Source of the DNA: a virus | Strand: one strand, 5' to 3' | Length of the DNA: 64,000 nucleotides | IMG/VR virus record: IMGVR_UViG_3300017971_000214 | Location: 62,001 to 126,000 of that record | Made by a program: the position numbers and the translations under genes | Notes under the pieces: generated by a model | Seen by the model: only the letters and a program-made list of their open reading frames with translations | The model's database searches: none | What the model was told of the DNA's origin: nothing | Shown here: positions 634-39,046 of the stretch, in pieces | Numbering within the stretch: the first letter of the stretch is position 1 | Layout: each line of letters begins with the position of its first letter

Positions 634-2775
634 GTGCGGACTCCTTTTTCTCCCCCCGCGGACCCGCTAGCTGCGGCGATGTCGGAAGAGGCTGAGTCCG
701 CCGACACGTTGGCGGACTTACGTCGGTACTCGGTGCTCAAGTCGGTGGCCTACAAGACCGTCGACATGTTCTCCGGCATCACCAAGCGGCGCTTGTGGCT
801 GAAGGACGGCTCCTTCGTGGGGACAGACGGGAACGAGATCAGAGTTCCCTTCTCCGATCCGGACTTCTACCAGCTGGTGGAGCGCCAGCTCGCCCACGTC
901 CTGTTTCGCTCGGACGCCAAGGCCAAGAAGGTGTTCGTCCGGGACTACTCGATGAAGGTGGCGGAGGTAGCCAAGAAGATGGGGGTCGAGCTGAACGCCG
1001 GCCACCTTCAGGGAGCCATCGGCCACATCATCACGGTTCTGGAGAAGCGCCGCGTCACCTCCCTGTGGGGGATCTTGTATCCCGGCAGCCACCAGCTACT
1101 GAAGGAGATCGACCAGGAGTCCGTCGCAGAGCTGATGAATGAAGCGCACGGGAGCCTACTCGCCTATCTGACCTGTTTGGAAGGCGACGGAGCGTCGGTC
1201 GGTGCGGGGGAGATGGATCGATTCCGGCCCTACATCGAGGAAGCCTTCCGGAAGGTGCACAAGCGGGGGTTCTCGGCGACGCTTTCGATCTCCAAGTGGC
1301 TCGTGATGCAGTTCGTCAACGAGATCATCCGAGAGCTGAAGGACATCCCACCCCCTCCCCCGCCCATGCCTACGCCCCAAGGGCAGCCCGGCTCTGCTGG
1401 AAGCTCCGGCGAGAACGATTCAGAGAGGGAGGAAGGTGACGACTGCGACTGCGACGCCCCGAAGGCTGGGGGCAGCTCGGAGGGATCCGGAGAAGAAGGC
1501 GATGAAGGCTCCCAGGAGCCCTCTGAAGGCGACGATGGGGAGGGGGAGGGCGACGCCCCCGACGAAGGCGACGAAGGGCAGGAAGGGGCCTCAGAGGGGG
1601 AAGAAGACGGGGATGGGGATGCCCCCTGGAACCCGCCGCCTCCGCCGGCTACCGGGGCCGAGCGTACCCAGGCGCTGAAAGATCTGATCGACAAGCTGGG
1701 GAAGGCCCCCGAGCAGGTGAAGGACACAATGCTGGAGTCCAAGTTCACCAAGTCTCGGCACTCGCCTAAGGCGCAGGCGCTTGCTTCGCAGGCGTTGAAG
1801 GCGGACGTGAACAACCCGGACAAGTTCGAGGACAGCCTGGATGACTCCGAGCAGGAGATGGAGGACATCCTGGATGCGGCTCTCCGAGCCATGCGCCAGA
1901 AGATGCACCACGACGAGTGGTTGCAGAAAGATGCGATGGCGAAGATCAGCTTCGTCGACAAGGAGGATCAGAAGCACGCCCGGCAGCCCATGAGCTTCGA
2001 GGACCAGCAGACGGTCAACCGTCTGCGCGCGATGTTCCACCGCGTGATGGGCAAGCGCAAGAGCGTGCTGGAGTACGAAGGCACGGAGATCGACGTGAGC
2101 GCCTACATCGAGCGCATGACCACAGGGCTTCCTGTGCCGTGCTTTCGATCGGAGGGCACGGGACGAGGGTTCAAGGCCCTGTTGTTGCTGGACCGATCGA
2201 GTTCGATGGGTGGTGCCAAGACGCAGCAGTGCGAGAGGGCGGGTCGAATCATACGGAGGGCGTTGGAGTTCCCTTTCGTGGAGACCACGGTGTGGGGCTT
2301 CAGCTCGAACGAGCCGGGGCAGATCTCGCTCATCCGGCACAACTCACGCGCCGACGTCGAGCTGCGGGAGGGGGAACGAGGGTCGGGAGGTTCGACGCCG
2401 CTGCACGTGGCTGTTCGTCTGGGGGTACGCGAGCTGGAGCGGGGGACCGAGAGCAAGCAGCTTTTCGTCCTGACCGATGGCTTTCCTACGCACGCTAAGC
2501 GCAACGGGAAGATCTTCGCTACCGAGCAGCTGATGCTGTTTGTCCGCGACGAAGTGCGGAAGGCGCGGAGTAAGGGGATCAACGTCACTTGTGTCTTGGT
2601 GGGCGCACCGGACTGGAGAAAGCCCGACCAGATCCACTACGACATGTCCCCAAAGCAACTTTCCTATATGTTCGGCCCTCGTCGCAACTGGCGTCAGATG
2701 GACCCCGAGCGTGTCGGCAGCGATCTAGTTCACCTTGTTGCCACGAGCTTCGTGGACTTTCTGAAGCGGGGGTAG
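634..2775 (+). CDS. CobT-like von Willebrand factor A (vWA) domain protein
   Basis: 713 residues from a GTG start 2 bases after the ATPase stop (an ATG at 679 is an alternative). Residues about 240-345 form a very acidic, Pro/Gly/Ser-rich linker, as in CobT. The C-terminal 200 residues are a vWA domain: the MIDAS motif DRSSS near residue 519, a GGSTPL threonine and LTDGFPT are all present, so metal binding should be intact. The family works with a CobS/MoxR AAA+ partner, and the adjacent upstream gene supplies one. CobS/CobT-like pairs occur in several large phages, where their function is not settled. Cobalt chelation, virion assembly and host remodelling are all possible. Confidence 0.8.
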   Translation: MRTPFSPPADPLAAAMSEEAESADTLADLRRYSVLKSVAYKTVDMFSGITKRRLWLKDGSFVGTDGNEIRVPFSDPDFYQLVERQLAHVLFRSDAKAKKVFVRDYSMKVAEVAKKMGVELNAGHLQGAIGHIITVLEKRRVTSLWGILYPGSHQLLKEIDQESVAELMNEAHGSLLAYLTCLEGDGASVGAGEMDRFRPYIEEAFRKVHKRGFSATLSISKWLVMQFVNEIIRELKDIPPPPPPMPTPQGQPGSAGSSGENDSEREEGDDCDCDAPKAGGSSEGSGEEGDEGSQEPSEGDDGEGEGDAPDEGDEGQEGASEGEEDGDGDAPWNPPPPPATGAERTQALKDLIDKLGKAPEQVKDTMLESKFTKSRHSPKAQALASQALKADVNNPDKFEDSLDDSEQEMEDILDAALRAMRQKMHHDEWLQKDAMAKISFVDKEDQKHARQPMSFEDQQTVNRLRAMFHRVMGKRKSVLEYEGTEIDVSAYIERMTTGLPVPCFRSEGTGRGFKALLLLDRSSSMGGAKTQQCERAGRIIRRALEFPFVETTVWGFSSNEPGQISLIRHNSRADVELREGERGSGGSTPLHVAVRLGVRELERGTESKQLFVLTDGFPTHAKRNGKIFATEQLMLFVRDEVRKARSKGINVTCVLVGAPDWRKPDQIHYDMSPKQLSYMFGPRRNWRQMDPERVGSDLVHLVATSFVDFLKRG

Positions 2776-2777
2776 CG

Positions 2778-3302
2778 TTGGGGCAGGCGCTTTACACAGG
2801 ACCCAAGGGCCTTTGTCGAGACTGCGGCAAAGAGACCTTCATCCGGCTGGGCTCGATGGTAGGCAAGGTCAAAGAGCGCGCGTGGGAGATCCACCCGGAG
2901 CTGATGCAGCTCATCTACAGCGACATCCGCCGGGCCACCGTGATGCTCAGCAGAGGGAAGCTAGAGGTTCGGTGCCCCGCCTGTATCGAGGACCCCATCG
3001 TCCAGACGCCCAAGGCGTCCAAGCTGATGTGGGTGGCTCTGGACGGTGTTGTGGGCGACGCACCTTCAGGCATGCTCATCGGTCCGTTCTGCAACCAGTG
3101 CTTCAAGGTCCGTCGTCGTAAGTTCGAGTCGCAGGACGGCTTGGCCGCGGACCTGCCCGTCTACTACGTGACGGTCACCCAGAACAACCTGGAGATCGTC
3201 CGAGAGACCCCACGGCCCGTGGAGATTCCCCCCGAAGACGAGCCCAGTCGCGGCGGGGAGCCAGACGACTCCGGAGCAGCGGAGGTGGGGGGACTGTTTT
3301 GA
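2778..3302 (+). CDS. Zinc-binding protein with three CxxC pairs
   Basis: 174 residues from a TTG codon 2 bases after the vWA gene's stop. No ATG or GTG lies nearer the natural beginning. CxxC pairs occur at residues 13/16, 66/69 and 105/108, and the C-terminal 25 residues are acidic and Pro/Gly-rich. It looks like a soluble zinc-ribbon protein and is probably cotranscribed with the CobS/CobT-like pair. I do not recognise the family, so function is unknown. Confidence 0.6.
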   Translation: MGQALYTGPKGLCRDCGKETFIRLGSMVGKVKERAWEIHPELMQLIYSDIRRATVMLSRGKLEVRCPACIEDPIVQTPKASKLMWVALDGVVGDAPSGMLIGPFCNQCFKVRRRKFESQDGLAADLPVYYVTVTQNNLEIVRETPRPVEIPPEDEPSRGGEPDDSGAAEVGGLF

Positions 3303-3322
3303 TGCGTCCATGTGGACGTATT
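3303..3322 (+). promoter_or_regulatory. Palindromic element, copy 1
   Basis: The 17-base sequence CGTCCATGTGGACGTAT lies at 3305-3321, between a stop codon and the Shine-Dalgarno sequence of the Lys-rich gene at 3337. Its arms CGTCCA and TGGACG pair around TG. The identical 17-mer recurs at 52629-52645, again just upstream of a gene start. It could be a DNA operator or an RNA hairpin affecting translation. Confidence 0.5.
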
Positions 3323-3336
3323 GCGGAGGTGAGGTA

Positions 3337-3693
3337 ATGGTGACGAAGAAGAAGGCCAAGAAACCGGCCAAGAAACCGGCCAAGAAGGCCGTCAAGAAGA
3401 CCGCGAAGAAGGCGCAGCCGAAGAAAGCGGCCAAGAAGAAGGTAGCCAAGAAGAAGCGGGCGCCTGCGGGCTCGGATACGGTAGTCGAGCGCGAGGTGCA
3501 GTCGGCTTTGAAGGGTGGTCCCAAGAGCAACCAGGAGCTGCGTTCTCAGCTCGGCACCGAGGACAAGAAGCTGACACGGACGCTGCAGCGGCTGCGACGC
3601 CGCGGGTTGCTGAAGGTGGTCAAGGGCCGCTGGGCTCTGACGACCGTCGAGATCTGCCCCAAGTGCGGCGGCAAAGGCTGGGTCAAGAAGTAG
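3337..3693 (+). CDS. Histone H1-like Lys/Ala-rich protein with winged-helix-like domain
   Basis: 118 residues. ATG at 3337 follows a strong GGAGGTGAGG site, and the upstream in-frame GTG at 3310 has none. Residues 3-42 consist almost only of Lys, Ala and Pro in KKPAKKPAKK-type repeats, like eukaryotic H1 tails and bacterial Hc1/AlgP-type proteins. Residues about 48-105 look like a small winged helix (QELRSQLGTEDKKLTRTLQRL, then a GLLKVVKGRW wing). The end has CPKCGGKG, a DnaJ-like zinc half-site. Probably binds DNA or RNA non-specifically. A second protein of the same design lies at 34308. Confidence 0.65.
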   Translation: MVTKKKAKKPAKKPAKKAVKKTAKKAQPKKAAKKKVAKKKRAPAGSDTVVEREVQSALKGGPKSNQELRSQLGTEDKKLTRTLQRLRRRGLLKVVKGRWALTTVEICPKCGGKGWVKK

Positions 3694-3700
3694 GGCCGCC

Positions 3701-3835
3701 ATGCCCGCTTTCATCGCCGAGAAGCAGCTTCACCCTAAGCTGCGGGCAAGGATCAGTGTGTCCTATTGGGCCGTCGTTCTTCTGTCCTTCGTGCAGGTAG
3801 TGGTTCTGGCAGTCGTCTTGTGGAGGTGTATGTGA
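3701..3835 (+). CDS. Small single-pass membrane protein
   Basis: 44 residues, too short for most gene callers. ATG at 3701 lies 7 bases after the previous stop. Residues about 19-41 (SVSYWAVVLLSFVQVVVLAV...) form one hydrophobic segment, preceded by a basic N-terminus. Its stop overlaps the GTG start of the next gene (ATGTGA), which supports it being translated. Function unknown. Small phage membrane proteins can be holin- or exclusion-related, but nothing here shows that. Confidence 0.5.
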   Translation: MPAFIAEKQLHPKLRARISVSYWAVVLLSFVQVVVLAVVLWRCM

Positions 3836-8212: not shown

Positions 8213-8535
8213 ACTTCAGCGAGTACCAGAAGAAGGCCGGAACGACGGCGCTCTACCCCGACCGAGGCAACCACATCGCCTACCCCGCGCTAGGGCTTGC
8301 CGGCGAAGCTGGCGAGGTCGCAGAGAAGGTGAAGAAGATCTTGCGAGGAGACCGCGAGTTGGACGACGAGTACCGCGCGGTGCTGCGCAAAGAACTCGGG
8401 GATGTCCTGTGGTACGTGGCGGCGATGTGCCACGAGATCGGAGCCGACATGCAGGACGTCGCCGAGGAGAACATCGCGAAGCTCGCCTCGCGGAAGGAGC
8501 GTGGGGTCATCCGCGGAAGTGGGGATGACCGATGA
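8209..8535 (+). CDS. MazG-like nucleotide pyrophosphohydrolase
   Basis: 108 residues, ATG overlapping the upstream stop. Shows the all-alpha NTP pyrophosphatase pattern: GLAGEAGEVAEKVKK supplies the first EExxE-like metal-binding helix and KELGDVLWYVAAMCHEIG the second (E, then D three residues later). Such enzymes hydrolyse (d)NTPs or related nucleotides to monophosphates. In phages they are proposed to clean the nucleotide pool or alter host alarmones. Length fits the compact MazG-like family. Confidence 0.85.
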   Translation: MNFSEYQKKAGTTALYPDRGNHIAYPALGLAGEAGEVAEKVKKILRGDRELDDEYRAVLRKELGDVLWYVAAMCHEIGADMQDVAEENIAKLASRKERGVIRGSGDDR

Positions 8536-8735
8536 AGGTCGAGCCCGGACCCGAGCTGACGAGGGCGCAGGGGGACCTCGTGATGGAGCTGTTGTCCGAT
8601 GCGCGTGACAGCGTGTACCGAGCGGCGCAGGAAATCGGATCGAAGGACCCGGCCCACGACGTCCTGTGGAGCATGGCCGGGAGGATCGAACACGAGAAGG
8701 TCAAGCTGCTGCGGCGGTGCAAACAATGCTCTTGA
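8532..8735 (+). CDS. Small hypothetical protein
   Basis: 67 residues, ATG overlapping the MazG-like stop. Predicted helical with a CKQC near the C-terminus. It is the last gene of the nucleotide-metabolism run. A promoter-like sequence overlaps its end. Function unknown. Confidence 0.5.
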   Translation: MKVEPGPELTRAQGDLVMELLSDARDSVYRAAQEIGSKDPAHDVLWSMAGRIEHEKVKLLRRCKQCS

Positions 8736-8760
8736 CCGATCTGAATGTAGGCGGTAGTCC
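8732..8760 (+). promoter_or_regulatory. Putative sigma70-type promoter upstream of the replication module
   Basis: TTGACC at 8732-8737, a 17-base spacer, then TAGTCC at 8755-8760. It matches the TTGAC-N16..18-TAG/TAA pattern seen before several other operons here. A short ORF starts 3 bases after the -10 element, and the replication initiator starts 177 bases downstream. Confidence 0.45.
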
Positions 8761-8763
8761 TAC

Positions 8764-8913
8764 ATGCCAGGCTGGACTAAGCCTCCAGCACAGTGGGTGG
8801 TCACTCCAGAAGCGAAGAAGAGTCCGGAAGGGGATCTTCACCGGTTTCTCCCCCCTGCCGGTGATGCCCGGCTTAGCTTTCGGGCTCTCCTTCGCCGCTG
8901 GAGTGCGTCTTGA
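8764..8913 (+). CDS. Possible small protein (49 aa)
   Basis: ATG at 8764 just after a promoter-like sequence, ending TGA at 8911-8913. Composition looks protein-like (MPGWTKPPAQWVVTPEAKK, then HRFLPPAGDARLSFRALLRRW). There is no clear Shine-Dalgarno, so it would need near-leaderless translation. It fills most of the 202-base gap between the small gene ending at 8735 and the initiator. The alternative is an untranslated leader. Confidence 0.35.
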   Translation: MPGWTKPPAQWVVTPEAKKSPEGDLHRFLPPAGDARLSFRALLRRWSAS

Positions 8914-8937
8914 AGCCGATGAGAGGAGCCCGTAGCC

Positions 8938-10212
8938 ATGCCCCGACCCAAGAAGCAGCCGGCCCGTGTGAACCCTTGGCGCCTCTTTGTGGGGGCCATG
9001 GTGCCCAACTGGCTGCTGCTGCGCCCCGAGCTGTCCCTCGGTGCCAAGCTCGTCTACGGGCGCCTCGCCCAGTACGCCGGGCGCCGGGGCTACGCCTACC
9101 CACTCATGAAGACCCTCGGGCGCGCGGTAGGGGTCAGCGAGAGGCAAGCGCGACGCTACGTCTCGGAGCTGAAGAACCACGGTCTCCTGGACACGGTCGA
9201 CTACTCGGAGACCAACCGACCGAGCCGGTACTACTTCCTAAGCCACCACTGGATGTATGAAGAGGAAGTACACGAAACCACACTAGAAAGCGCGGGGGAC
9301 CAGGACCAAGAAGAAAACGACCAGGAATTGCAGAGCGATTCCGAGGATTTGACACACCCCCCGGACACATATGACCGGACCCCCCGGACACATATGACCG
9401 GACCCCCCGGACAGATGTGTCCGCCAGAAGAGAGTCAGGGAAGAGAGTCAGAGAAAGAGACTCAGGGTAGCGCCTTGCGGCGCCCCATCCCGGAAACGCC
9501 TCCTTCCGGCCCCCCGTCGAAACCGCAGGATACTGAATACGCCAGGCCACCTGATATGAAACGCGATTGTCAAGTGGGGCGCTCAGTTCCGGTCCCCTCG
9601 GTGGCCGAGCTGGGTGCGGTCGTGAAGGCCGCTCAAGCGGAGGCCGACGACGCCGCGCGCATCAAGGCGGCCAAGAAGAAGGCCGCGGCGGAGCGACGCC
9701 AGCGGTACAACGAGCAGCGCAAGGAGAACCGGAAGAACGAGCAGCGCGCGACCAACCTGCAGGGCAATGGGCTGAACGGGTCGAAGCTCACTCCTGAGCA
9801 GCGCAAGCGCCTGAAGAAGTGCGAGGGGCTGTGGCTATCCGGCATGCGGGCTCGTTGGCCCGACGCTACGTTTGCGGCGTGGAGCGGGAAGGAGCGCGGG
9901 CAGTGCACCAAGTTGCTGAAGCTCTACCCTGGTGACCTCGTAGGGCAAGCGCTATCCTATGTGATAACCAACTGGGATGCGATCAAGGAGAGGCTGTTCA
10001 GAGGCAAAGGCTCCTTCCCCACGGTGGGGATGGTGCTCCGGCTGCACGACGTGCTGGTCCCCGAAGCCGAGACGCTAGGAAAGGCGCTGGCTGTTCGGGA
10101 CGAATACAAGCAGTGGTTCAAAGACAACCCCAACAGCCTGTACCCACCGGATGACCTGGAGGCCAGGTACAACGCGGTCAAACCAGATCTCGAAGCGCTT
10201 GGATTGGAATAG
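8938..10212 (+). CDS. Replication initiator-like helix-turn-helix protein (O/RepA-type)
   Basis: 424 residues, ATG preceded by GAGGAG. Residues about 25-110 form a winged helix typical of phage replication initiators: LSLGAKLVYGRLAQYAGRRG, then GRAVGVSERQARRYVSELKN and a wing. A low-complexity acidic linker follows (about 115-165), encoded partly by 23-bp direct repeats at 9357-9423. The C-terminal half has a basic helix (AAKKKAAAERRQRYNEQRK) and a folded domain that may contact the helicase loader. The DnaC-type loader and DnaB helicase follow immediately, as in lambda O-P-type modules. Confidence 0.75.
   Translation: MPRPKKQPARVNPWRLFVGAMVPNWLLLRPELSLGAKLVYGRLAQYAGRRGYAYPLMKTLGRAVGVSERQARRYVSELKNHGLLDTVDYSETNRPSRYYFLSHHWMYEEEVHETTLESAGDQDQEENDQELQSDSEDLTHPPDTYDRTPRTHMTGPPGQMCPPEESQGRESEKETQGSALRRPIPETPPSGPPSKPQDTEYARPPDMKRDCQVGRSVPVPSVAELGAVVKAAQAEADDAARIKAAKKKAAAERRQRYNEQRKENRKNEQRATNLQGNGLNGSKLTPEQRKRLKKCEGLWLSGMRARWPDATFAAWSGKERGQCTKLLKLYPGDLVGQALSYVITNWDAIKERLFRGKGSFPTVGMVLRLHDVLVPEAETLGKALAVRDEYKQWFKDNPNSLYPPDDLEARYNAVKPDLEALGLE
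9357..9423 (+). repeat. 23-bp iterons inside the initiator gene, candidate replication origin
   Basis: A 23-bp unit, six C followed by GGACACATATGACCGGA, occurs at 9357-9379 and exactly again at 9380-9402. A partial third copy reads CCGGACAGATGTGTCC at 9407-9422. CATATG and GGACAnATGTGTCC give internal dyad symmetry. The 23-bp period is not a multiple of 3, so conservation acts on DNA rather than protein. Position inside an initiator gene is typical of lambda-type origins. Confidence 0.65.
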
Positions 10213-10845
10213 ATGAAGGATGGAGGGAGCAACGTGGAGCGGCTGCGCCGCACGCTAGGTCGATCGGACCTGGAGCGCATGAACATCCCGAAGAAGTTCT
10301 GGGGTGCGAAGGTGCAGTATGCCCCCGAGAGCGTGCGCGACGTCGTGCGCCGCTACCTGCTCAACATCGACAATATGGTGGCCCGCGGGGCCGGCATGTA
10401 CGTCGTCGGGAAGCCCGGCGTGGGCAAGACCTCTATCGCCGTTATGGTCTGCAAGGAAGCGCGTTCCTGCGGCTTCACGGCCTACTTCACCCCCATCTGG
10501 GAGTTGAGGGAGTGCATCAAGTCCAGAGTCATGTTCGAAGAGAACACGTCGGTTCTGGACCGCTGCAAGGAAGTCGATGTTCTGGTGCTCGATGATCTCT
10601 GCGCCGATGACGTCAAAGACTACACGTTCGGCGCTCGTCGCATCGAGGAGCTGCTGTCGTACCGGAGTTCTCAGAAGCTCGTCACTGCGGTTACGACGCG
10701 ATTGGATGCGTCGGAGCTGAAGAGCAAATTCGCATCCTTGATTTCATCGACACGTGGGTGCATGGTGTTCCTCCCCGTCGAAGGCCCAGACCTGAGACGG
10801 AAGCAGGACGAAGAGTTGAATAGAGCGGTGTTCGGTTCGGACTAG
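10213..10845 (+). CDS. DnaC-like helicase loader ATPase
   Basis: 210 residues starting directly after the initiator stop. Walker A GKPGVGKTS at residues 66-74 and Walker B VLVLDDL with Asp127/128. TRLDASELKSKF near the end is the usual sensor region of DnaC/IstB-type AAA+ loaders. In this family it loads the hexameric DnaB helicase at the origin. Gene order initiator, loader, helicase supports this strongly. Confidence 0.88.
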   Translation: MKDGGSNVERLRRTLGRSDLERMNIPKKFWGAKVQYAPESVRDVVRRYLLNIDNMVARGAGMYVVGKPGVGKTSIAVMVCKEARSCGFTAYFTPIWELRECIKSRVMFEENTSVLDRCKEVDVLVLDDLCADDVKDYTFGARRIEELLSYRSSQKLVTAVTTRLDASELKSKFASLISSTRGCMVFLPVEGPDLRRKQDEELNRAVFGSD

Positions 10846-10879: not shown

Positions 10880-13456
10880 GTGGGCGTTGATCTCGACAAA
10901 GGACTGGTTGCATCCATACTCCGCGATGGCCCCGACGCTTTGAAGGTCGTGAGGGAGTTCGGGATTGACGGCAGCCTTTTGGTAGATCCGGGGCGCAAGT
11001 TGTTCGACTTCGTCGAGCACTACTTTCGGCAGTATGGCCAGCTCCCCACGCCCGAGCTGCTGGTATCGAAGTTCGAGAAGGGCTCTCTTCCCGACGTGAA
11101 GGATCCAATTGAGTACTTCATCTTGGAGATCCGCGGCAGGAAACTGCAGAACGATCTGAAGGGCCGCGTCTACCCGTTCATGAAGATGCTCGAAGACGGG
11201 CAGAAACCCTTCGAGGCTCTAGACGAACTGGACATTCTGATCCGTGGTCTGCGTCAGGCTCACGAGATCACACGGGCTCAAGCCGAGAGCGTGCCGAAGC
11301 TGTGGCCTGAGGTGATGGATCTCTACGACCGGGTGAAGGGCGGGGAGAAGGGCATTCTCACCCCGTGGCCTACGGTGAACAACGAGACGCTAGGCTTCTG
11401 GCCTGAAGACCTCGCGCTGTTCGCGGCCCGGCTCGGCATAGGCAAGTGCGTAGCCGAGGATACGGAGATCGTAGACCCAGAGACAGGTGTTCCGCATACC
11501 ATCCACGAGGTGTGTGAGAGAGAAGATCTCAGGAAGGTGTTCACTTGGAGCAAGGAGCGGGGGGTTCACGCTGCGCGGATAACGGCCAAGGTAGACACGG
11601 GAGTAAAACCCTGTCTGCGGTTCCGCTTTGCGTCTGGTCGCGAGGTCACTGTGACGCCGGAGCACCCTTTTCTGACCTCAGCTGGTTGGGAACCAGCGGC
11701 GGACTTGGTTGTGGGGGCTTCTGTGGGCCTTCCGGCTCGGGTGCCGTTCCCCGAGAGCCCCGAGCAGCTGCTTCCAGAGGCGGTTGATCTCCTCGCACTC
11801 CTGTTGGCGGAAGGGAGCTATAGCGGGAAGCACGTTGGGGTCTCTAGCGATGATGACGTATTGTTGTCGATCGCTAGTCGAGCGTCTGACGCTTTCGGAG
11901 TAGATCTGAAGTACCGCTCGGGAGTCGACTACGATTTCGTCCGGCGGGAGAAGTCAGGCCCCAACCATGTGAGGACGTTTCTACGCTCTCACGATATGGA
12001 CGGGAAGAAGGCCGTAGACAAGATTATCCCAGAAGCCGTGTTTGGTCTCCCTTCCGATCAGCTAGCTCGGTTCCTCGGGCTGTTCTGGATGTGTGACGGG
12101 TACGTAGATGGCACCGGTCCTGGCGTGACGCTTGCCTCCGAGAAGATGGTTCAGCAGCTCCAACATCTTCTCCTCCGTTTTGGGATTCATAGTAGTGTTG
12201 ATCCAAAGAAGGCTACGTGTGAGGGGCGTGTATTCAACGCGTGGCGTCTCAGGGTGTACGCTTCCTCTTGGCCTGTGTTCTTGGCCGCTATTCCGCTGTG
12301 GGGTAGCAAGCGAGAGCGGTTGGAGGAGTTGGAGAGCCTGGACCGAAATCCTAACATCGGCTTCCCCAGGGTTTCAGGGGAGTTCAAGGCGCATCTTTTG
12401 GGATTGGTACGGAAGAGAGAAAACCATGGGAAGCTGAAACAGGTTGGCGAGCGCCTTGGCTGGTCCAGCTATTTCATGTTCCGCAGCCTGTTCGGGAAGG
12501 GCGACACTTTGTTGCTTCGGCGCTTCGCGGTGTTCTGCGAAGTATTTGGGCTGGAAAGGGAGTTCGGTTGGTTGTGGGACAGTGAGATTTTCTGGGACTC
12601 TGTGGAGTCTATCGAGGACGTCGGCCCTACCAAGATCTATGACCTCACTGTCGAGCCTTCTGCGTGTTTCTTGGCCAATGACGTGATCGTTCACAACACG
12701 TGGGCGGCGGCCATCATCGCTCATCACGCGTGGGCCGTGGGCGGCCACAAGGTGCTGTTCGGAACGACGGAGATCTCCAAGATTCGCATCGCCATGCGCT
12801 TCGCGGCGATCCACTTCAAACTCCCCTACCGTGAGATTCGCCTCGGGAAGCTCGACGCCTTCAACGAGAAGAAGATGCGCGATGGCATCAAAGACATCAT
12901 GGATGCCGAGGGGCTGTACGTCATCGGCGGGGACTTCGACTTCCGCGTGGAGTCCTACGAGAACGCCGTCGAAGAGGTGGCGCCCGAGCTGTCGATCTTG
13001 GACGGAGCCTATTTGCTCAAGACGCAGGGGCAAACCAGGACCGAGCGCGCTGCCAACGCCTTCGACGAGCTGAAGCGAATTTGCAAGCGCACGAAGTGCC
13101 CGAGCATCGTCACCATGCAGTTCAACCGCGAGGTGAAGGCAGGCTCCAAGGCCACGGCAGACGCCGGCAACATCGCGCTGACCGACGTCGCTGGCTGGAA
13201 CGCCGATCTCGCCTACGGACTGATCCAGTCCGAGGACATGAAGAAGGACCGCCGTATGATCTTCAAGCCCTTGAAGGTCCGTGAAGGCGAGGGCGAGGAG
13301 TTCGAGGTCAATTGGGACATCGACAAGGTGAACTTCACCGAGCTGCCGAAGCTGGGTGGCGGCGGGGGTGGAGCCGATGATGATGACGATCCGTTCGGTG
13401 CTGGAGTGAACGGCACGGGCGCCAGCTCGGGCGGTTCGGACGAGGTGCCTTTCTAG
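10880..13456 (+). CDS. dnaB: DnaB-type replicative helicase, precursor with an intein in the P-loop
   Basis: 858 residues from GTG 10880 after a GGGGGAT site. Removing the intein (residues 190-606) leaves about 441 residues, normal for DnaB. The N-terminal helical domain and linker are followed by a RecA-fold: the intein splits the P-loop RLGIGK|TWAAAIIA, and SIVTMQFNREVKAG and downstream motifs resemble DnaB-family motifs. The helicase unwinds DNA ahead of the fork and recruits primase. The tail ends GGSDEVPF, like the acidic tip of bacterial SSB. Splicing must occur for ATP binding. Confidence 0.92.
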   Translation: MGVDLDKGLVASILRDGPDALKVVREFGIDGSLLVDPGRKLFDFVEHYFRQYGQLPTPELLVSKFEKGSLPDVKDPIEYFILEIRGRKLQNDLKGRVYPFMKMLEDGQKPFEALDELDILIRGLRQAHEITRAQAESVPKLWPEVMDLYDRVKGGEKGILTPWPTVNNETLGFWPEDLALFAARLGIGKCVAEDTEIVDPETGVPHTIHEVCEREDLRKVFTWSKERGVHAARITAKVDTGVKPCLRFRFASGREVTVTPEHPFLTSAGWEPAADLVVGASVGLPARVPFPESPEQLLPEAVDLLALLLAEGSYSGKHVGVSSDDDVLLSIASRASDAFGVDLKYRSGVDYDFVRREKSGPNHVRTFLRSHDMDGKKAVDKIIPEAVFGLPSDQLARFLGLFWMCDGYVDGTGPGVTLASEKMVQQLQHLLLRFGIHSSVDPKKATCEGRVFNAWRLRVYASSWPVFLAAIPLWGSKRERLEELESLDRNPNIGFPRVSGEFKAHLLGLVRKRENHGKLKQVGERLGWSSYFMFRSLFGKGDTLLLRRFAVFCEVFGLEREFGWLWDSEIFWDSVESIEDVGPTKIYDLTVEPSACFLANDVIVHNTWAAAIIAHHAWAVGGHKVLFGTTEISKIRIAMRFAAIHFKLPYREIRLGKLDAFNEKKMRDGIKDIMDAEGLYVIGGDFDFRVESYENAVEEVAPELSILDGAYLLKTQGQTRTERAANAFDELKRICKRTKCPSIVTMQFNREVKAGSKATADAGNIALTDVAGWNADLAYGLIQSEDMKKDRRMIFKPLKVREGEGEEFEVNWDIDKVNFTELPKLGGGGGGADDDDDPFGAGVNGTGASSGGSDEVPF
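11447..12697 (+). mobile_element. DnaB intein (417 aa, LAGLIDADG endonuclease domain)
   Basis: Starts with Cys (CVAEDTEIVDPETG) and ends VIVHN followed by Thr, with block B TPEHPF and block F YDLTVEPSACFLAND. These are complete class 1 splicing residues. Two dodecapeptide-like motifs, LLALLLAEGSYSG and LGLFWMCDGYVDG, indicate a LAGLIDADG homing endonuclease with the acidic residues retained. Inserted at GK^T of the Walker A motif. The region looks less GC-rich than the surrounding extein by eye. It resembles the first TerL intein in sequence and site. Confidence 0.95.
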
Positions 13457-13462
13457 GGTGAG

Positions 13463-13783
13463 ATGATGGCGCAGGTAGGACAGATTCCCCGGTACGTGAA
13501 ACACGTCACGATGGCCATTCTCAAGAAGAGAGGAATCCATTCGTTCGAGGCTGCTCTCGACATTGCTAGGGCTCAGCTCACCAAGTTCGGCTACCTCGCG
13601 GCGGGCTCGGACAAGGGACCCCCTGCGAGAATCAAGCTGACGGCGGAGGGCAGGAAGAAGAACAGGGAGTTCGCTCGCCGCCCGATGCGCATGCTTTTGG
13701 AGTTCGATCGGGCGTATCAGAAGTCCAAGTGGGGCGGGAAGGACTTGAGCGAGCGGGAGGCGGGTTCAAAATCAGAGGACTAG
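13463..13783 (+). CDS. Hypothetical protein between helicase and primase
   Basis: 106 residues, tandem ATGs at 13463/13466 after GGTGAG. Basic protein (KKRGIHSFEAALDIARAQLTK, then KLTAEGRKKNREFARRP). The first half reads like a helical, possibly winged-helix fold with an IKLTAEGRKK segment. Ends 5 bases before the primase start. Possibly a replisome accessory protein, inferred only from position. Confidence 0.55.
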   Translation: MMAQVGQIPRYVKHVTMAILKKRGIHSFEAALDIARAQLTKFGYLAAGSDKGPPARIKLTAEGRKKNREFARRPMRMLLEFDRAYQKSKWGGKDLSEREAGSKSED

Positions 13784-13788
13784 ACCGG

Positions 13789-14898
13789 ATGGACTTGGAG
13801 CAGATAGAGAAGTTGTTCAAGGTCTTGGGGTGCCTAGAGACGCGGTACAGCGGCACGTGGCTGAACGCCTCGTGCCCCTTCGCTGCGTGGAAGCACAAGA
13901 AGGGCCGCGACTCCCGTCCGAGCTTCGGCATCTCGATAGCGCCCGGCTGCGTGAGTCGGTATCGGTGCTTCGCGTGTTCGACTTCGGGGGACCTTCCCAC
14001 GTTTTTGTGGGCGTTGCAGAAGCTGAAGGGCGACGGCCCCTGGTTCGAGAGGGCTTCCAAGATCCTCATGGACCACGAGCATCCATCGCTTCGGGAGATC
14101 GAAGCTCGTATTGCTTTCGCCGAGGACCCGGAGAAGACGATTGCCGACCGACTGGCTCGGGCGCCTTCGGGTTGGGCGTACTCGGAGGCGAAGAAGCCTA
14201 GCTTCGCGTTCGATCAGAAGAGCGACGGGCGGAAGGCGCTGAAGCTAGACCACCTCGAATACGTGAAGATTCCAGAGGAGCATCTGGATCCTTTCCACTC
14301 CATTCCTCCCGAGGTGCTGGACTACCTGACAGGCCCAAGGCGTAAATTGCAGCACACCGCTATCGCGTTGTGGGATCTGGGGTGGCACCCACACAAGCGC
14401 CGAGTGGTGATCCCTATTCGAGACTGGGATGGGAACCTCGTAGCTCTCACCGGGCGCTGTCTCGACCAGTACGACGCCAAGGACGACAAGTGGTGGCACG
14501 AGCAGGAGCCCAAGTTCCTTCACAGCAAAGGTTTCAAGCGGGACTACTTTCTGTTCGGCGAGCACTTGGTGGAGCAGGGAGAACCCGGCATTCTCGTGGA
14601 GGGTCACTTCGACGCCATGTACCTCCGGCAGATGGGTTACCCCAACACGGTGGCGGTGATGGGCTCCTATTTGAGCAAGGTACAGGTCGAGAAGATCGTG
14701 TCGATGTTCAGCGAGGTCACCATCTTCCCGGACGGTGACGAGGCTGGCGGAATCGCTGCCGAGAAGTGGGAGCACGCGCTGAAAGGCCGGGTCGATGTCA
14801 AGGTGCTCACGGTACACACGGGCCGCGATCCTGACGATTACGACGACGAGGAGTTGTTGGAGCTGATGGGCTTTGACTATCAGGACGCACCCTGCTAG
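13789..14898 (+). CDS. DnaG-type DNA primase
   Basis: 369 residues from ATG 13789, 5 bases after the upstream stop (the frame is open upstream without need). N-terminal zinc-binding region CPFAAWKH...RYRCFACSTSGD. Toprim domain from about residue 260: ILVEGHFDAMYL with catalytic Glu, then IFPDGDEAGG, the DxDxxG metal site. Synthesises RNA primers at the fork with the adjacent DnaB helicase. The helicase-binding C-terminal domain of bacterial DnaG is absent, as in many phage primases. Confidence 0.88.
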   Translation: MDLEQIEKLFKVLGCLETRYSGTWLNASCPFAAWKHKKGRDSRPSFGISIAPGCVSRYRCFACSTSGDLPTFLWALQKLKGDGPWFERASKILMDHEHPSLREIEARIAFAEDPEKTIADRLARAPSGWAYSEAKKPSFAFDQKSDGRKALKLDHLEYVKIPEEHLDPFHSIPPEVLDYLTGPRRKLQHTAIALWDLGWHPHKRRVVIPIRDWDGNLVALTGRCLDQYDAKDDKWWHEQEPKFLHSKGFKRDYFLFGEHLVEQGEPGILVEGHFDAMYLRQMGYPNTVAVMGSYLSKVQVEKIVSMFSEVTIFPDGDEAGGIAAEKWEHALKGRVDVKVLTVHTGRDPDDYDDEELLELMGFDYQDAPC

Positions 14899-14938: not shown

Positions 14939-14979
14939 CAACATCAGCGCGTAGCGTGAAAGCACGCCAGGAGATAGAA

Positions 14980-15783
14980 ATGAGCGAAGAACAGTCTTGG
15001 TACAACACTGGGTACGACGGCGTCTCGAAGGAAGAGGCGCGCATCCAGGCATCGCGCGGCCCGAGCCGCGTGTGGATCAAAGGGGGGACGGGGAAAGACC
15101 TCGTCCTTGTCGACGGGGAACCGTTCTGCATCTACGAGCACAATGCGAAGATCGACGGCAACTGGCGCAACCATCACACTTGTATGCGGGGGTTCGAGGA
15201 TCCCTGCCTGTCGTGTGAGACGCTGGGGGCCAAGAGCCGGTACTACTGCGGCTACCTTACTGCGGTGGACTGCTCGCTCTGGGAGGACAAGAAGGGCAAC
15301 AAGTACCAGTTCGAGGTGAAGCTCATCGGCGGCAAGCTGGGGCAGCTCAAGAAGTGGAAGCGCAAGCAGGAGTCGCGGGAAGAGGACGGCAAGGGCGGCC
15401 TGGCGATGACCAAGTGGAAGGTCTTCCGGGAGGACGACACGAAGGCGTCTACGGGCGATGAGTGGGAAGCTGACGGCGAGGTAACGAAGCCGGAAAAGCT
15501 GTTCGAGGTCGCCAACTACCGCGGGAAGCTGCTGTCCGAGATGTGGGACGAGGCGGAAAAAGAGGAGCCCAAGATGGTGGCTCTCAAGAAGATTTTCCAG
15601 CTGGAGTTCGACGACGACGGCAATCTCGTGCGCAAGGTTGTCCCGTTCAACTACATGGAAGTCCTGAAGCCGAGGGGCAACCAGTTCGTGAAGGACATGC
15701 TTCGCGGAGCTTCGACGGACGACGACACCAACAGCGATAAGTCTGGTGGCGCTGGAGGGTCGGAGGACGACGTTCCGTTCTAG
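14980..15783 (+). CDS. Zinc-containing putative ssDNA-binding protein with SSB-like acidic tail
   Basis: 267 residues from ATG 14980, preceded by AGGAGAT. Residues about 40-90 contain His and Cys ligands spaced for zinc (HHTC, then DPCLSCETLG and YYCGY). The last 25 residues are acidic and end EDDVPF, close to the DDDIPF tip of bacterial SSB and like tails of T4 gp32 and T7 gp2.5. A DNA-replication position, zinc site and acidic tail make a gp32-like ssDNA-binding role plausible. A separate OB-fold SSB lies at 23940. Followed by a good terminator. Confidence 0.55.
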   Translation: MSEEQSWYNTGYDGVSKEEARIQASRGPSRVWIKGGTGKDLVLVDGEPFCIYEHNAKIDGNWRNHHTCMRGFEDPCLSCETLGAKSRYYCGYLTAVDCSLWEDKKGNKYQFEVKLIGGKLGQLKKWKRKQESREEDGKGGLAMTKWKVFREDDTKASTGDEWEADGEVTKPEKLFEVANYRGKLLSEMWDEAEKEEPKMVALKKIFQLEFDDDGNLVRKVVPFNYMEVLKPRGNQFVKDMLRGASTDDDTNSDKSGGAGGSEDDVPF

Positions 15784-18290: not shown

Positions 18291-18641
18291 ATGTCGAAGA
18301 AGAACGCGGTGCAGCCCACCGTCGTAACGGTGAGGCGTCAGTTTCTGGAGGGTGGGGAGCCCGCGAGCCTTCCTGAAGAGAAGACCGAAGTGATCGAAGT
18401 CCACCGCTTCGTCGTCGAACCCGCGAAGGTCCAGGTCGGTCGGGGCCTTACCTTGAACATGGGCAACTACGAGTCTGCTCGCTTGGATGTGGGCATCGAG
18501 GTCCCCTGCTACGTCGAAGAAGTCGACTCTGCTTACGAGTGGGCGCGCCGCTGGGTCGAGAAGCGTATCGGTGAGGAGCACAAGTCGATCAAGGGGCACG
18601 TTGACAAGAAGAAGTCTGGGTCGGAGGAGAACCCGTTCTGA
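18291..18641 (+). CDS. Conserved-looking hypothetical protein with acidic ENPF tail
   Basis: 116 residues, ATG after GGGGACGAC. Contains LNMGNYESARLDVGIEVPCY and helix YEWARRWVEKRIGEEH. It ends SEENPF, another SSB-tail-like terminus, one base overlapping the RecA start. The NYES..DV pattern recalls small proteins seen near recombination genes in other phages, but I cannot name the family. A ssDNA- or RecA-accessory role is inference from position and tail. Confidence 0.55.
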   Translation: MSKKNAVQPTVVTVRRQFLEGGEPASLPEEKTEVIEVHRFVVEPAKVQVGRGLTLNMGNYESARLDVGIEVPCYVEEVDSAYEWARRWVEKRIGEEHKSIKGHVDKKKSGSEENPF

Positions 18642-20881
18642 TGGCCAAGAAGAAGGACAACAAGCCCGGCGTGGAACTCGCGTCCTCGTTGGACAAGCTG
18701 CTTGCCAGCAAGGCCATGGCATCCATCCACAAGGATCACGGGGACGCCATCTTCATGAAGGCGTCCGAGCATGACTCGGCTATCCCTCGGATCCCAACGG
18801 GGGTTTTCAGGATGGACTACGCCACCGGAGGCGGCCTCCCCGTGGGGCGCGTCACGGTGATTTGGGGGCACAAGTCGAGTGCCAAGACGACCACCTATCT
18901 GAAGACCATCGCCAACGCGCAGAAGATGTGCGCGAGCTGCTGGCAATTTCAGGAAACGTGCAACTGCGGGAACTACAGGGATCCCGTCATCGCGTTCCTC
19001 GATGTGGAGGGAACACTCGACCTTCGGTGGGCCAAGGTGCTCGGTGTAGATCTGGACCGGATGCTCTACTCCAAACCGGAGTACGCCGAGCAGACGCTCG
19101 ACATTGCGGAGGCCATCATACGCAACGGTGCCGACATCATGGTCATCGACTCGCTCGCGTTCCTAGCGCCTGCAGCAGAGATCATGAAGTCGACGAGCGA
19201 GGACACAGTGGGACTGCAAGCGCGCCAGCTCGGCAAGGGCACGCGCAAGTTCGTTGCGGCCGTCAACACTGTGTCCAACGCTCGTGGTATCGGCCCCACG
19301 TTGTTCTTCACCAATCAGGTTCGCATGAAGGTTGGTGTCATGTTCGGCTGCTTCCCCTACCAGGCTCCCGTCCTACTGGCAGACGGAACCAAACGAAGTA
19401 TCGGTCAGATCGTCAATCAGAAGCAGCCTGTGGAGGTACTGAGTTGGAATGCACACGAAAAGAGATTTGAGCCCAAGCGGGTGGTCCGCTGGTGGAAGCA
19501 AGGGGTTGATGTAGACGAATGCTGTCTGTCGGACAACGACATCGGGGCGCTACGTCAGGAGTACCGCACTCTTGTTGTGTCGTATCCGGATGGCAGCGGT
19601 CACACCAAGATCACCGCTACTCCGAATCATGAGATATCGACGCCGCGTGGGTTCGTTTCTGCCGACACGCTCGACTTGGACGACGAGGTATATTGCCGAC
19701 ATGAGCGTGTGGTATTCAGCCACGACTTGGAGCAGTTGATCTTCGGCTCGCTGCTCGGCGACGGGTCGATCAGGAAATCGGGAAGGCATACTTCGTACTT
19801 CCGAGAGTCCCACGCTCAGAAAGAGCGCCAGTACTTGATGTGGAAGCGCGAATGCTTTGGCGACTTGGTTCGCGAGAGCCTGACCGACAGAGACGACGAG
19901 AGATCAGAGGTAGGTTTCGAGACGAGGGCTCTGTCTTCCTTTTCTCAGTACAAGCGGTTGTTCTACGGGGAGTCCGGTAGGTACAAGCGGATTCCTCGGT
20001 CGTGGCCGATGGTTCTTTCTCCGTTTGCTCTGGCCATTTGGTATCAGGACGATGGTTGGCTGGCAGACGAAGGCGGCACGAGAAAGCGCAACGTGATTTG
20101 CCTCCACGAGACTACGCCGGATGAAAAGGATCACATCAAGAAATTGATCGAGGGGCTATTCGGACTGCAGGTCGCAGTGTGCTCCGGCGGCCATCGCACT
20201 GATATCCAGTTCAACGGGGAGGTAGCGGACAAATTCGAGAAGATAGTGGCTGGTTGGGTTCATCCCAGCATGTCGCACAAGCTGCGGACAACTGCCGGTG
20301 TGGGTCAGCTGCTGCCTCGACTCGAATTTGGGTGGTGCACTGAGGTTGTTGCTCATCCGTGTCCTGTTGTTGAGATCCGAAGGTCTATGCGAGAGGGATC
20401 TTCTGGAGTCCGGTACAACTTGGAGGTGGAGGATAACGCCACCTACGTTGTTGGAGATGCCATCGTCCACAATTCGCCCGAGACGCAGCCCGGCGGTCTG
20501 TCGACCGGCTTTGCTTCTTCGCTGGAGATCAAGACCAGGGCGGGCAAGTTCGAGATGGACGAGGTGCTAGGAAAGCCTCTTACTGCGGGCTTCGCGTTTC
20601 GCGTCGAGAAGAACAAGGCCGGCGTGCCTAAGATGGAGGGCGACTTCAAGCTGCTGCTGATGAGCACGGAGCACCGGCGTGTTGGGGATGCGGTCAACGA
20701 GCCCTTCATGGTCGACATGGCGCAGAAGGTCGGGCTCGTGGAAGGCGGCGGTTCCTCGTGGAAGGCGCTCGGAGAGAAGTTCAAGTCCAAGACCGCCATC
20801 GAGGAAGCAATGATCCAGAGCCCCGACTTCTACCTGCGCATGCACAGCGCTTTGATGGCTGTGCTGCTGTCGGATGACTAG
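18641..20881 (+). CDS. recA: RecA-like recombinase, precursor with an intein
   Basis: 746 residues. Without the intein (residues 237-611) the protein is 371 residues, normal for RecA. The Walker A site reads GHKSSAKTT (76-84), with Ala replacing the usual second Gly, and Walker B is IMVIDSLAFLAP. The L2-region sequence NQVRMKVGVMFG|SPET..GG is split by the intein. A CASCWQFQETCNC cluster (Cys97/100/107/109) is inserted after the first helix and probably binds zinc. Catalyses strand exchange, with nuclease, resolvase and SSB genes following. A diverged but plausible ATPase. Confidence 0.92.
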   Translation: MAKKKDNKPGVELASSLDKLLASKAMASIHKDHGDAIFMKASEHDSAIPRIPTGVFRMDYATGGGLPVGRVTVIWGHKSSAKTTTYLKTIANAQKMCASCWQFQETCNCGNYRDPVIAFLDVEGTLDLRWAKVLGVDLDRMLYSKPEYAEQTLDIAEAIIRNGADIMVIDSLAFLAPAAEIMKSTSEDTVGLQARQLGKGTRKFVAAVNTVSNARGIGPTLFFTNQVRMKVGVMFGCFPYQAPVLLADGTKRSIGQIVNQKQPVEVLSWNAHEKRFEPKRVVRWWKQGVDVDECCLSDNDIGALRQEYRTLVVSYPDGSGHTKITATPNHEISTPRGFVSADTLDLDDEVYCRHERVVFSHDLEQLIFGSLLGDGSIRKSGRHTSYFRESHAQKERQYLMWKRECFGDLVRESLTDRDDERSEVGFETRALSSFSQYKRLFYGESGRYKRIPRSWPMVLSPFALAIWYQDDGWLADEGGTRKRNVICLHETTPDEKDHIKKLIEGLFGLQVAVCSGGHRTDIQFNGEVADKFEKIVAGWVHPSMSHKLRTTAGVGQLLPRLEFGWCTEVVAHPCPVVEIRRSMREGSSGVRYNLEVEDNATYVVGDAIVHNSPETQPGGLSTGFASSLEIKTRAGKFEMDEVLGKPLTAGFAFRVEKNKAGVPKMEGDFKLLLMSTEHRRVGDAVNEPFMVDMAQKVGLVEGGGSSWKALGEKFKSKTAIEEAMIQSPDFYLRMHSALMAVLLSDD
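19349..20473 (+). mobile_element. RecA intein (375 aa, LAGLIDADG endonuclease domain)
   Basis: Begins with Cys (CFPYQAPVLLADGTKRSIGQ), block B TATPNHEI, and ends VVGDAIVHN followed by Ser. Dodecapeptides LIFGSLLGDGSIR and LAIWYQDDGWLAD retain the catalytic Asp residues. It splits the RecA sequence at VMFG|SPE, within the conserved core. Codon choice looks less GC-biased than the flanking extein. Confidence 0.95.
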
Positions 20882-26309: not shown

Positions 26310-27035
26310 ATGCGCTCTCTACAGGAGAACATCGCCGTTGCTCGGGCTCTGATGGAGTCGAACGCCATCCGAACCCCCTCGGTTCGCGTCGCTGACGCCT
26401 GGCGCAAGACCATCCGAATGGGCGATCAGTACTTGGAACTTCTGACACAGGCGGCGCAGGCGGCTTCGAAGGCGGCGAAGGCCGATGACCCGGTGGCCTC
26501 CAGGCGTGCCAACTCGGACGTCTCGGGGGTCATGACGAAGTTCGTTCCTCTGACCAACAAGTTCTACTCGTCGCACAAGGATGCCATGCTTTTCATGGAC
26601 AAGCTGGGCGAGCAGTTGGACCTTCCGACGTACCGTCCGTGGCCCAAGAAATTGAAGTCCCCTGCTAACCTCACGTCGATGTCGGACGATGAGATCAGGA
26701 AGCAGTTGGAGAAGGCCGCGAGGAACGCCATCGGCGGGTGGCGAGACATGTTGGAGAAGGGCGCCTCTGCGTCCCGGATGTTCCGGGAGGCCGCCAAGAG
26801 CAAGGAGACGCCGAGCAACGAGTTTGTATCGGAGATCATCCAGGACGGGCTGAACTTCAGGGACTCGGTGGGCATCAACGTCTACGCACGGACGAACGGG
26901 ATCATCCGAAGGGTGGTCGAGCTGTCCAACCGCGCTTGGGAGGCCATGGCGCTGGAAGCACGGTTGGACGAGGGCTCGATGCTCCGGTGGAACCCGCCGT
27001 GGCGTGGTGAGATTGGCGACGCCGAGGTCATCTGA
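26310..27035 (+). CDS. Hypothetical protein upstream of giant protein
   Basis: 241 residues from ATG 26310, chosen because TAGGAG lies 8 bases upstream. An in-frame ATG at 26271 would begin at the promoter itself. Basic, helical protein (RSLQENIAVARALMESN) with regions of Lys/Ala, and a Trp-containing end. Its stop overlaps the ATG of the giant gene. Probably cotranscribed with it, perhaps a packaged or chaperone partner. Not recognised. Confidence 0.55.
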   Translation: MRSLQENIAVARALMESNAIRTPSVRVADAWRKTIRMGDQYLELLTQAAQAASKAAKADDPVASRRANSDVSGVMTKFVPLTNKFYSSHKDAMLFMDKLGEQLDLPTYRPWPKKLKSPANLTSMSDDEIRKQLEKAARNAIGGWRDMLEKGASASRMFREAAKSKETPSNEFVSEIIQDGLNFRDSVGINVYARTNGIIRRVVELSNRAWEAMALEARLDEGSMLRWNPPWRGEIGDAEVI

Positions 27036-30000
27036 TGGACGAGATCTTCTTCGCGCGCCCCGCGGGACTGGCTCTGTGGGAGGACGCCGCAGGCGTCCTG
27101 CTCGAAAGCACCGGCTTCGTCAATGAGGTCAAGATCATCGGAGTCAAGACGGACGACTCCGGCAACAAGAAGATCTTGGTCTGGAAGAACTACAAGTCCG
27201 GCCCCAAGCCCGCGTGGATTTCGTCGAAGAACCTCCACAAGCACGCGAGCGACCTGATGGACCCCCCAGAGGGGACCACGGATGAGTACCCCCCGGTGGG
27301 GGACATCTCCGACCCTGCGAGCTTCACCGGAAGCACCACCGACATCAAGCCCCTGCCAGGCAAGGAGACAGTTCCCGAGATGGGGGCCGACGTGTGGGTG
27401 CCTTCCGTTGCGCTGAAGAACCTTGCCAAGAAGGTCAAGGCCATGGGCCTGAAGCCTCAGGACACCTTCCAGAAGGCGGTTGCTGCCGGCGAGCCCATCC
27501 CGAAGGAGATCCCGAAGGCTGTCGGCCTGTCCGGGCTCCCCAAGGCGGACGAGCCCGCCAAGGCCCCTGAGACGCCTCCAGAGGCGCCGAAGGAGCCCGA
27601 GGCCCCCGAGCCCCCGGCAGAGCCAGAAGCGCCTCCAGAGGCCCCTGCGGAGCCCGCAAAGCCTGCTCTCGTGATGACTCCGGACGAGGTGGCGCAGGCC
27701 GCCAAGGCTGGGGACATCGACAAGTTGGATCAGAACGCTGAGAAGTTGGGGATCAAGGGGCGCGAGGAGCTGAAGAAGGCGGCCCTCGGCGCCCATGACT
27801 CGGGGGACTACGAGAAGGCGGCCAAGCTCGCTGGGGTGTTGGCGAAGGCATTCGAGAAGACGAAGGGTGCTAGCCACGCGTTCACCAAGGCGTGGGCGGA
27901 CAAGGCGCAGGAGTTTGCGAAGAAGGCGAGCGGGGAAGAGCCGGCGCCTCCAGAGCCCGAGAAGCCCAAGGCTGCGGAGCCTGGGGGGCCGATTGGGGAC
28001 GATGCTATTCAGGCTGCGTCTGTTTCCGGTGATTGGAGCCAGGTCGTAGCGAGTGCCAAGGAGCTTACTCCAGAGCAGATCAATACCGTCACCAACGCGT
28101 TCAACGCCGCATCGGCTGGAGACGATCACAAGAAGGCCGCAAGCGTGGCCGAGGCCATGGCGGAGATCCAGCAGGCGCGTGGGGAGGATATTTCGGCCAA
28201 GTTCTGGAAGGAGGACGCCGAAGAGGCCAAGAAGCTCGCGGGCCTACCCGTCGAGATGTCGGTTCCTCAGGTCAAAGACGCTGTTGAGGCCGGAGACATC
28301 GCCACGCTGAAGCAGAACGCCACGAAGCTCGGGGCCGCGCGAAAGTTCGTGGCCGCTGACATGGAGTTCGCCATTCAGGACGGCAACTGGAGCAAGGCGT
28401 CCGAGCTGGCTTCGATTCTCTCGGACTCCTACAAGGAGCACGGCATTCCGAGCATGGTTGAGTCCTATGCTCAGGCCGCGGAGAGCTACAAGAAGAAGGC
28501 AGAGGATCAGGCGGCGGCGAAGGATGCGGTCAGCGACGTCCAGGTAGACGACGCCCTCAGCTCCGGCAACTACGATGCGATCGTGGATAACGCCACCAAG
28601 CTGACGCCTCACCAGAAGAGCAAGTTCTGCGGGCACGTGGCGGACATGATGGTCGCGGCCGAGAAGGACCCCACCGCGGAGAAGGCGCAGAAGGTGGCGG
28701 AGGGGTGTGGTGCGCTGAAGAAGACCTACGAGGCGCTGGGCGAGGACACCATGGCGGAAGCCATGGGGGTCGAAGCGGAGAAGTGGGAGACCAAAGCAAA
28801 GGAGGCGCAGCCTTCGCCGATGGACGACTCAGAGATCGATCAAGCGGTCTCTGACGGCAACTACCAGAAGCTCATCAACAACGCCACGAAGCTGAGCGCG
28901 GACCAGATCGACAACGTAAAGGACGCGCACGAGAAGCTGTTCGATGTGGGCGAGTACGAAAAGGCGTCTGATCTAGCTAAGGCGATCTCTGAGGTAGAGA
29001 CCCAGCTGAAGGATGACTACGCCGCCACGCAGTGGGCGAAGAAGGCCCAGCAGCTCGGACCAGGATTCGCGCAGAACGAGTTGAGCAGCGCCATCGCTTC
29101 GGGGGACACCGAGGCGATCAAGAAAAACGCGGACTCGTTGGGGCTGGACGAGAAGTACCTCATCGCGAATGGAGCAGAGGAAGCGGCAGAAGCGGGCGAG
29201 TACGAGAAGGCGGCGAACCTTCTCACGGCTCTCGCGGAGGTTCAGGAGCAGAAGGGTGAGGAGAAGTCCGCGCAGAAGCTGAAGGCCAAGGCCAAGAACT
29301 TCCAGGCGCAGGCCGATCACGGGGAGGCGTTCTCCGAAGCGCTGGCGCAGGGCGACGCCGACTACATGGTGGCTAACGCCGAGAAGTTGTCGGCGCAACA
29401 GCGCGGCACCCTCGGGGAAGCTCTCACGAAGCTGGAGTCCGACCAGGATTGGGGCAACGCCGCGAAGATCGCCGAGGCCATTGCCGAGTCGTACAAGCAC
29501 GAGGACTCCCCCGCGGCCCCGTTCTGGGAGAACGAATCGAAGAAGTACGCCAAGCTCGCGGGGAAGGAAGTCTCTTCGCCCGTGCCAGAGCCGTTCAACG
29601 CTGCGGGGAATCTGACGCCTATGGCTGTTAACGCAGCCTTGGACAAGGGGGACTTGGACTTCCTAGCTGCGCACGCCGGCAAGTTGCAGGACAAGTCAGG
29701 AGTGCTGGAGGCATACACCGACGCGCAGTCTTTTGGGGACTGGGGGAAAGCCGCCAAGATAGCTGGGGTCATGGTGGCGCACTATGAGTCCAAGCTCGCT
29801 GGAGAGGAGCTGCCCGAGTCGCTGGCGGACACGTACCAGGCGGTTTTGGGAAACTGGCAGGGCGAGCAGGCTTTCGCGGCGGAGAAGATGGGGAAGGAAG
29901 CTCCTCCATCGGCGAAGGCTGCTGCTGAAGCGCAGGGAGAGTCCGCCTACACCAAGTACGGCTACGTCAAGGCAGCCGTGGCGGACAAGGCTGCGCAGAA

Positions 30001-39040: not shown

Positions 39041-39046
39041 GACTTC

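Follow-up and report, generated by a model that had tools for sequence, protein, structure and literature searches.

A probable replication origin of lambda type within the initiator gene of a large uncultured myovirus

Why should the gene of a replication initiator carry, between the coding regions of its two folded domains, tandem DNA repeats of 23 bp, a period that cannot preserve the reading frame from one copy to the next? The gene in question lies in a window of 64,000 nucleotides, which spans bases 62001-126000 of a viral record 126,260 bp long, and a contractile tail sheath, encoded near 58-61 kb, identifies the phage as a myovirus. The first-pass annotation of this DNA had taken the repeats to mark a likely replication origin. 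The answer developed here is similar: the region 9356-9483 is very probably a lambda-type replication origin of the phage, contained within the initiator gene, with initiator binding and firing proposed by analogy with lambda. The annotation had also placed loader and helicase genes just downstream, where a DnaC-like loader and an intein-bearing DnaB are indeed encoded, with a primase further on. In window coordinates, the genes and domains concerned are:

8938-10212, plus strand: initiator gene, 424 aa (open reading frame; Pfam HTH_36, 1.5e-9; PHROG replication initiation / O-like; AlphaFold2 model)
9028-9189, plus strand: region coding for the winged helix (HTH_36; Pfam match, aa 31-84)
9793-10197, plus strand: conserved C-terminal helical domain of the initiator, the presumed contact to loader or helicase (alignment, AlphaFold2 model)
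10213-10845, plus strand: DnaC-like AAA+ helicase loader (PHROG DnaC-like, 6.3e-21; Pfam IstB_IS21, 5.8e-7)
10880-13456, plus strand: DnaB-like replicative helicase with an intein (LAGLIDADG domain; PHROG, Pfam)
13729-14898, plus strand: DNA primase (Toprim; PHROG, Pfam; 55% identical relative in record L032)

By profile models the protein belongs to the HTH_36 phage initiators (37.9 bits against a cut-off of 25), and it matches the phage families phrog_270 (4.3e-14) and the O-like phrog_391. AlphaFold2 predicts a confident winged helix at about aa 34-100, disorder at about 106-220, a coiled coil at 222-276 and a confident helical domain at 286-420, i.e. a disordered linker between two folded domains. 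The nearest solved folds, weak matches with a best E value of 0.009, are those of the N-terminal domain of RepA proteins from staphylococcal plasmids, including one DNA complex; DnaD, MarR, ArsR and CodY types are also among the results. The repeats are encoded in the linker:

9356-9378, plus strand: iteron 1, 23 bp, ACCCCCCGGACACATATGACCGG, dyad core 9361-9378
9379-9401, plus strand: iteron 2, 23 bp, ACCCCCCGGACACATATGACCGG, identical to iteron 1, dyad core 9384-9401
9402-9424, plus strand: iteron 3, 83% identical to iterons 1 and 2, core 9407-9424

The array had been described as two exact copies and a partial one at 9357-9423, which agrees with these limits to within one base and with the two identical units and imperfect third. 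Internal dyads, likewise part of that description, are present in the units, and it is the 'partial' copy whose core, GGACA-GATG-TGTCC, is more symmetric and comes nearest to a true palindrome. Taken alone, the dyad symmetry of the array (7 of 9 pairs) has a P value of 0.02. The claimed change of frame at each copy is borne out as well: as a consequence of the 23-bp period every copy is read in another frame, so that the three yield unrelated peptides (PPDTYDR, TPRTHMTG and PPGQMCPP). The core CCGGACACATATGACCGG has three matches with up to three mismatches in the 64-kb window, against 0.02 expected, and elsewhere in the 126,260-bp record no further close copy was detected. When the exact core was sought across all viral contigs, 24 single-site matches were returned and set aside as chance, since none of these contigs has a second copy. 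The best tandem self-match in the initiator gene scores 37.5, whereas none of 40 codon shuffles scored above 12. In the protein the repeats correspond to aa 140-162, part of the predicted disordered stretch, a location probably explained by the tolerance of such a stretch for almost any peptide. Each is a hyphenated inverted repeat, as in lambda, and the array, a predicted binding site of the initiator, shows the lambda-type placement between the DNA-binding and C-terminal domains.

On their 3' side the repeats are followed by these features:

9424-9469, plus strand: purine-rich, easily melted tract, the presumed unwinding element (stability, purine content), comprising the three 13-bp repeats
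9427-9439, 9440-9452 and 9454-9466, plus strand: three 13-bp repeats, GAAGAGAGTCAGG (repeat search)
9470-9483, plus strand: hairpin GCGCC-TTGC-GGCGC (sequence; enrichment at such an offset across relatives)
9490-9509, plus strand: second hairpin CCGGAA-ACGCCTCC-TTCCGG (sequence)

The 13-bp copies, at 9427-9466, account for the further direct repeats that had been reported at about 9428-9465. The tract ranks among the least stable 0.35% and the most purine-rich 0.4% of the whole 64-kb window, and thus provides the easily unwound neighbour of a lambda-type origin by its low stability, though only about 50% of it is AT. The hairpin at 9470-9483 was also considered as an intrinsic terminator and rejected, there being no T-run after the stem and no entry for it in the terminator scan list.

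Could the repeats instead be an operator, through which the initiator regulates its own operon or stalls RNA polymerase? Winged-helix proteins are often repressors, dyad repeats are typical operators, and the MarR, ArsR and CodY types returned by the fold search fit such a role. The array, however, sits about 420 bp into the gene, a scan of 8300-10300 for sigma-70-like promoters found none, and regulation would leave unexplained why an unstable tract and, frequently, a hairpin are coupled to the repeats in the order of the lambda origin. We therefore regard an operator in place of an origin as unlikely; the two roles could coexist.

How might such an origin work? By analogy with lambda, we infer that dimers of the initiator winged helix would occupy the 23-bp dyads of 9356-9424, and that the bound initiator would wrap or bend the DNA, the resulting strain opening the neighbouring unstable purine-rich tract at 9424-9469. 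The C-terminal domain of the initiator could then recruit the phage-encoded DnaC-like loader, which would deliver the DnaB helicase of the phage to the opened strand, whereupon the phage primase would begin synthesis. The hairpin at 9470-9483 is probably a third element of the site, bordering the melted tract on its distal side. The adjacency of the predicted loader, helicase and primase genes, taken with the comparison across relatives described below, strongly supports the proposed origin. Counting against it is the presence of only three repeats, the third of them imperfect. No switch of GC or AT skew occurs at the site, the GC skew being flat and positive across it, and uninformative. The array might conceivably be a partition (parS-like) or packaging (pac-like) site bound by the protein, since sites of these kinds likewise contain repeats and may lie within genes. 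Given that the operon is one of initiator, loader, helicase and primase, that the large terminase, with its two inteins, is encoded 30 kb away (39799-44232), and that those neighbouring genes which were examined did not include one for ParA, such a function appears highly improbable.

Is the arrangement peculiar to this phage? A search with the initiator protein returned no relatives among viral contigs or genome contigs, and a single weak match in a collection of about 50,000 sequenced phage records. As the initiator has diverged too far to be searched with directly, relatives were reached via the primase and portal proteins, and then with a loader profile. The primase route led to L032 (55% identity) and the portal route to 80 loci. 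Of 34 primase or portal records searched with the loader profile, 20 had a match, two of the matches being flagged '1 TGA inside', and the open reading frame directly upstream of the loader was read in each; two profiles built from closer C-terminal domains recovered only records that were already known. All counts below refer to 17 non-redundant, complete open reading frames upstream of the loader, from the present phage and 16 relatives. L145, L152 and L154 duplicate L144, L151 and L153, and each pair is counted once; left out are L150, cut by the contig end, and L148 (G026), whose initiator region is in several frames. In the latter record, positions 2405-3807 upstream of the loader hold several short frames, reflecting either sequencing error or a decayed initiator.

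Linker arrays of two to four repeats, spaced by about 22-24 bp and degenerate in a few cases, are present in 16 of the 17 initiators. Tandem Repeats Finder detected 12 of them, with periods of 22-24 bp (22 or 23 in 11 of the 12); three emerged from a self-similarity scan (L142, L144 and L149, the last two less regular), and one, in L146, consists of degenerate copies at 22-bp spacing recognised by eye. The sole exception is the short initiator of L157, in which neither Tandem Repeats Finder nor the self-similarity scan found an array. Both the DNA and the encoded peptide of the unit differ in each phage (for instance GGTGTTCCCAAAAGGGAACAGGG in L032, CCCCAGGACACCAGTGTCTCGAC in L140 and CGTAGGGAGTGAAAACGCTCCCT in L155), as the first-pass annotation would have it in expecting homologous phages to conserve the repeats and not the linker protein. 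The usual period of 22 or 23 shifts the frame at each copy. In 176 kb of control DNA outside the initiators of the same phages there are five arrays of period 21-24; all have a period of 21 or 24, divisible by three as arrays that code for protein repeats should be, and none has one of 22 or 23.

By nearest-neighbour stability, the 42-46 bp directly 3' of the repeats fall within the least stable 2% of the gene at 13 of 15 loci, and within 6% and 10% at the remaining two. With P values that treat related phages as independent and are consequently too small, the repeat units are mostly dyad-symmetric (combined P ~1e-11 against shuffled units), the 3' segment is richer in A (P 3e-14) and in purines (P 1e-8) than the remainder of each gene, and hairpins at +45 to +84 from the last repeat, an offset window picked after inspecting the sequences, reach a mean score of 16.1, where random anchors within these genes give 10.8 (sd 0.67; P 5e-5). 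Their stems start mostly 45-60 bp beyond the last repeat, as in GGCGAGC-CTTC-GCTCGCC of L139 or GCGAATCAGC-ATGAA-GCTGATTCGC of L156; individually the hairpin is clear in about two-thirds of the loci and weak in L140, L141, L151, L153 and L155. Alignment shows the C-terminal domain to be recognisably common to the relatives. The type of winged helix varies, some being good HTH_36 matches and others matching only other winged-helix models.

These comparisons bear on a further explanation, that the array is a functionless tandem duplication which arose by chance or slippage in a low-complexity linker. Slippage does produce exact tandem copies, and the linker would tolerate changes in length. Yet the period, the position, the dyads and the unstable tract are kept across 16 phages whose sequences have fully diverged, and the 176 kb of control DNA, devoid of such periods, largely refute it, so that very little probability can be assigned to this explanation. 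The comparison across loader-linked initiators thus supports the original suggestion that iterons inside the initiator gene form a likely replication origin.

The closest parallel is phage lambda, in which, as in its Stx-phage relatives, dyad repeats at 20-24 bp lie in the linker-coding part of the initiator gene (PMC5043065, PMC7466680). Dimers of lambda O bind the iterons and open an adjoining 40-bp A+T-rich tract (PMC5043065), and the published lambda origin comprises the iterons and the AT-rich tract at 39034-39160 (PMC3349717). In the public record of lambda O, annotated iteron starts are 20, 24 and 23 bp apart, an A/purine-rich tract follows, and an interrupted palindrome, GTCAGAG...CTCTGAC, starts 44 bp beyond the last of them. 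The palindrome occupies 39162-39189 (1163-1190 of L160), directly to the right of the AT-rich tract and just outside the usual minimal origin, at an offset like that of the hairpins in the relatives; owing to a long loop and a mismatch, its stem receives no score in the perfect-stem test. Palindromes of this kind appear in early accounts of lambdoid origins. Both systems therefore share the succession of repeats, A/purine-rich melting tract and palindrome, with the loader gene directly downstream. Unlike in lambda, the repeats here number three rather than four and are of unrelated sequence, the putative melted tract is purine-rich with only 50% AT rather than AT-rich, and the loader is DnaC-like AAA+ rather than lambda P; a P-type loader capturing host DnaB was not found, DnaB and primase both being encoded by the phage. 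Evidence of ancestry common to this initiator and those of lambda and plasmids is limited to the winged helix.

Origins within initiator genes are not confined to lambdoid phages. The winged-helix N-domain is like that of the RepA_N plasmids of staphylococci, such as pSK41 and pTZ2162 (top PDB folds 4PQL, 4PT7 and 5KBJ), a likeness at the fold level only, as Pfam RepA_N (PF06970) has no match in the initiator and HTH_36 alone does. The origin of pSK41 has four Rep boxes in the middle of rep, where the encoded linker is dispensable, and a separate C-terminal domain follows (PMC5703833); the predicted origin likewise lies in the part of the initiator gene that encodes the linker, ahead of a separate C-terminal domain. 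Unlike these plasmids, the present replicon is a large myovirus, which itself encodes a loader, a helicase and a primase. Among smaller phages, gene 44 of Microbacterium phage Gingerbug, directly before the loader gene, similarly combines palindromic repeats about 22 bp apart, an A-rich tract and a hairpin with an 8-bp stem, CCTCCTGC-TGAC-GCAGGAGG. In contrast to the present initiator, gp44 is shorter, has another repeat sequence and is annotated only as a helix-turn-helix protein. Its gene (L169, 2477-3214), with palindromic AGGTCAGTCTGACCTA repeats, is itself a likely, unannotated origin.

What, then, is new? The locus is a very divergent case of a known arrangement, mildly novel in that the layout is fixed, the sequence free and the hairpin recurrent. 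It is possible, if rather doubtful, that the in-gene phage origin constitutes a portable three-part machine of dyads at 22-24-bp pitch, a melted purine-rich tract of about 45 bp and a hairpin at a fixed distance, whose layout was kept from lambda to large uncultured myoviruses as repeat sequence and winged-helix type were exchanged together. Were this true, the hairpin would have a conserved function, for instance in halting the melting or as a place on the single strand for loading or priming; its recurrence beside the melted tract poses a concrete, testable question. In any case an origin is predicted to the base pair for a lineage of large, uncultured phages, and a sequence-independent rule (frame-shifting 22-24-bp dyads in the linker region of whichever gene precedes the loader, a weak tract, a hairpin) could locate origins in many unannotated phages, with naturally matched winged helices and repeats as raw material for recognition rules.

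Other features of the window deserve mention. An open reading frame of 2244 aa (27035-33769) consists of many repeated helical segments with almost no Pfam match. At least four intein-like insertions occur in three genes, namely those for DnaB (10880-13456; LAGLIDADG), RecA (18641-20881; LAGLIDADG_2) and the large terminase (39799-44232; LAGLIDADG and HNH). The 275-aa protein encoded after the primase (14956-15783), with a weak match to phrog_17226 only, may be the single-strand DNA-binding protein of the phage; it ends in the acidic tail EDDVPF, and the helicase (10880-13456) ends in DEVPF.
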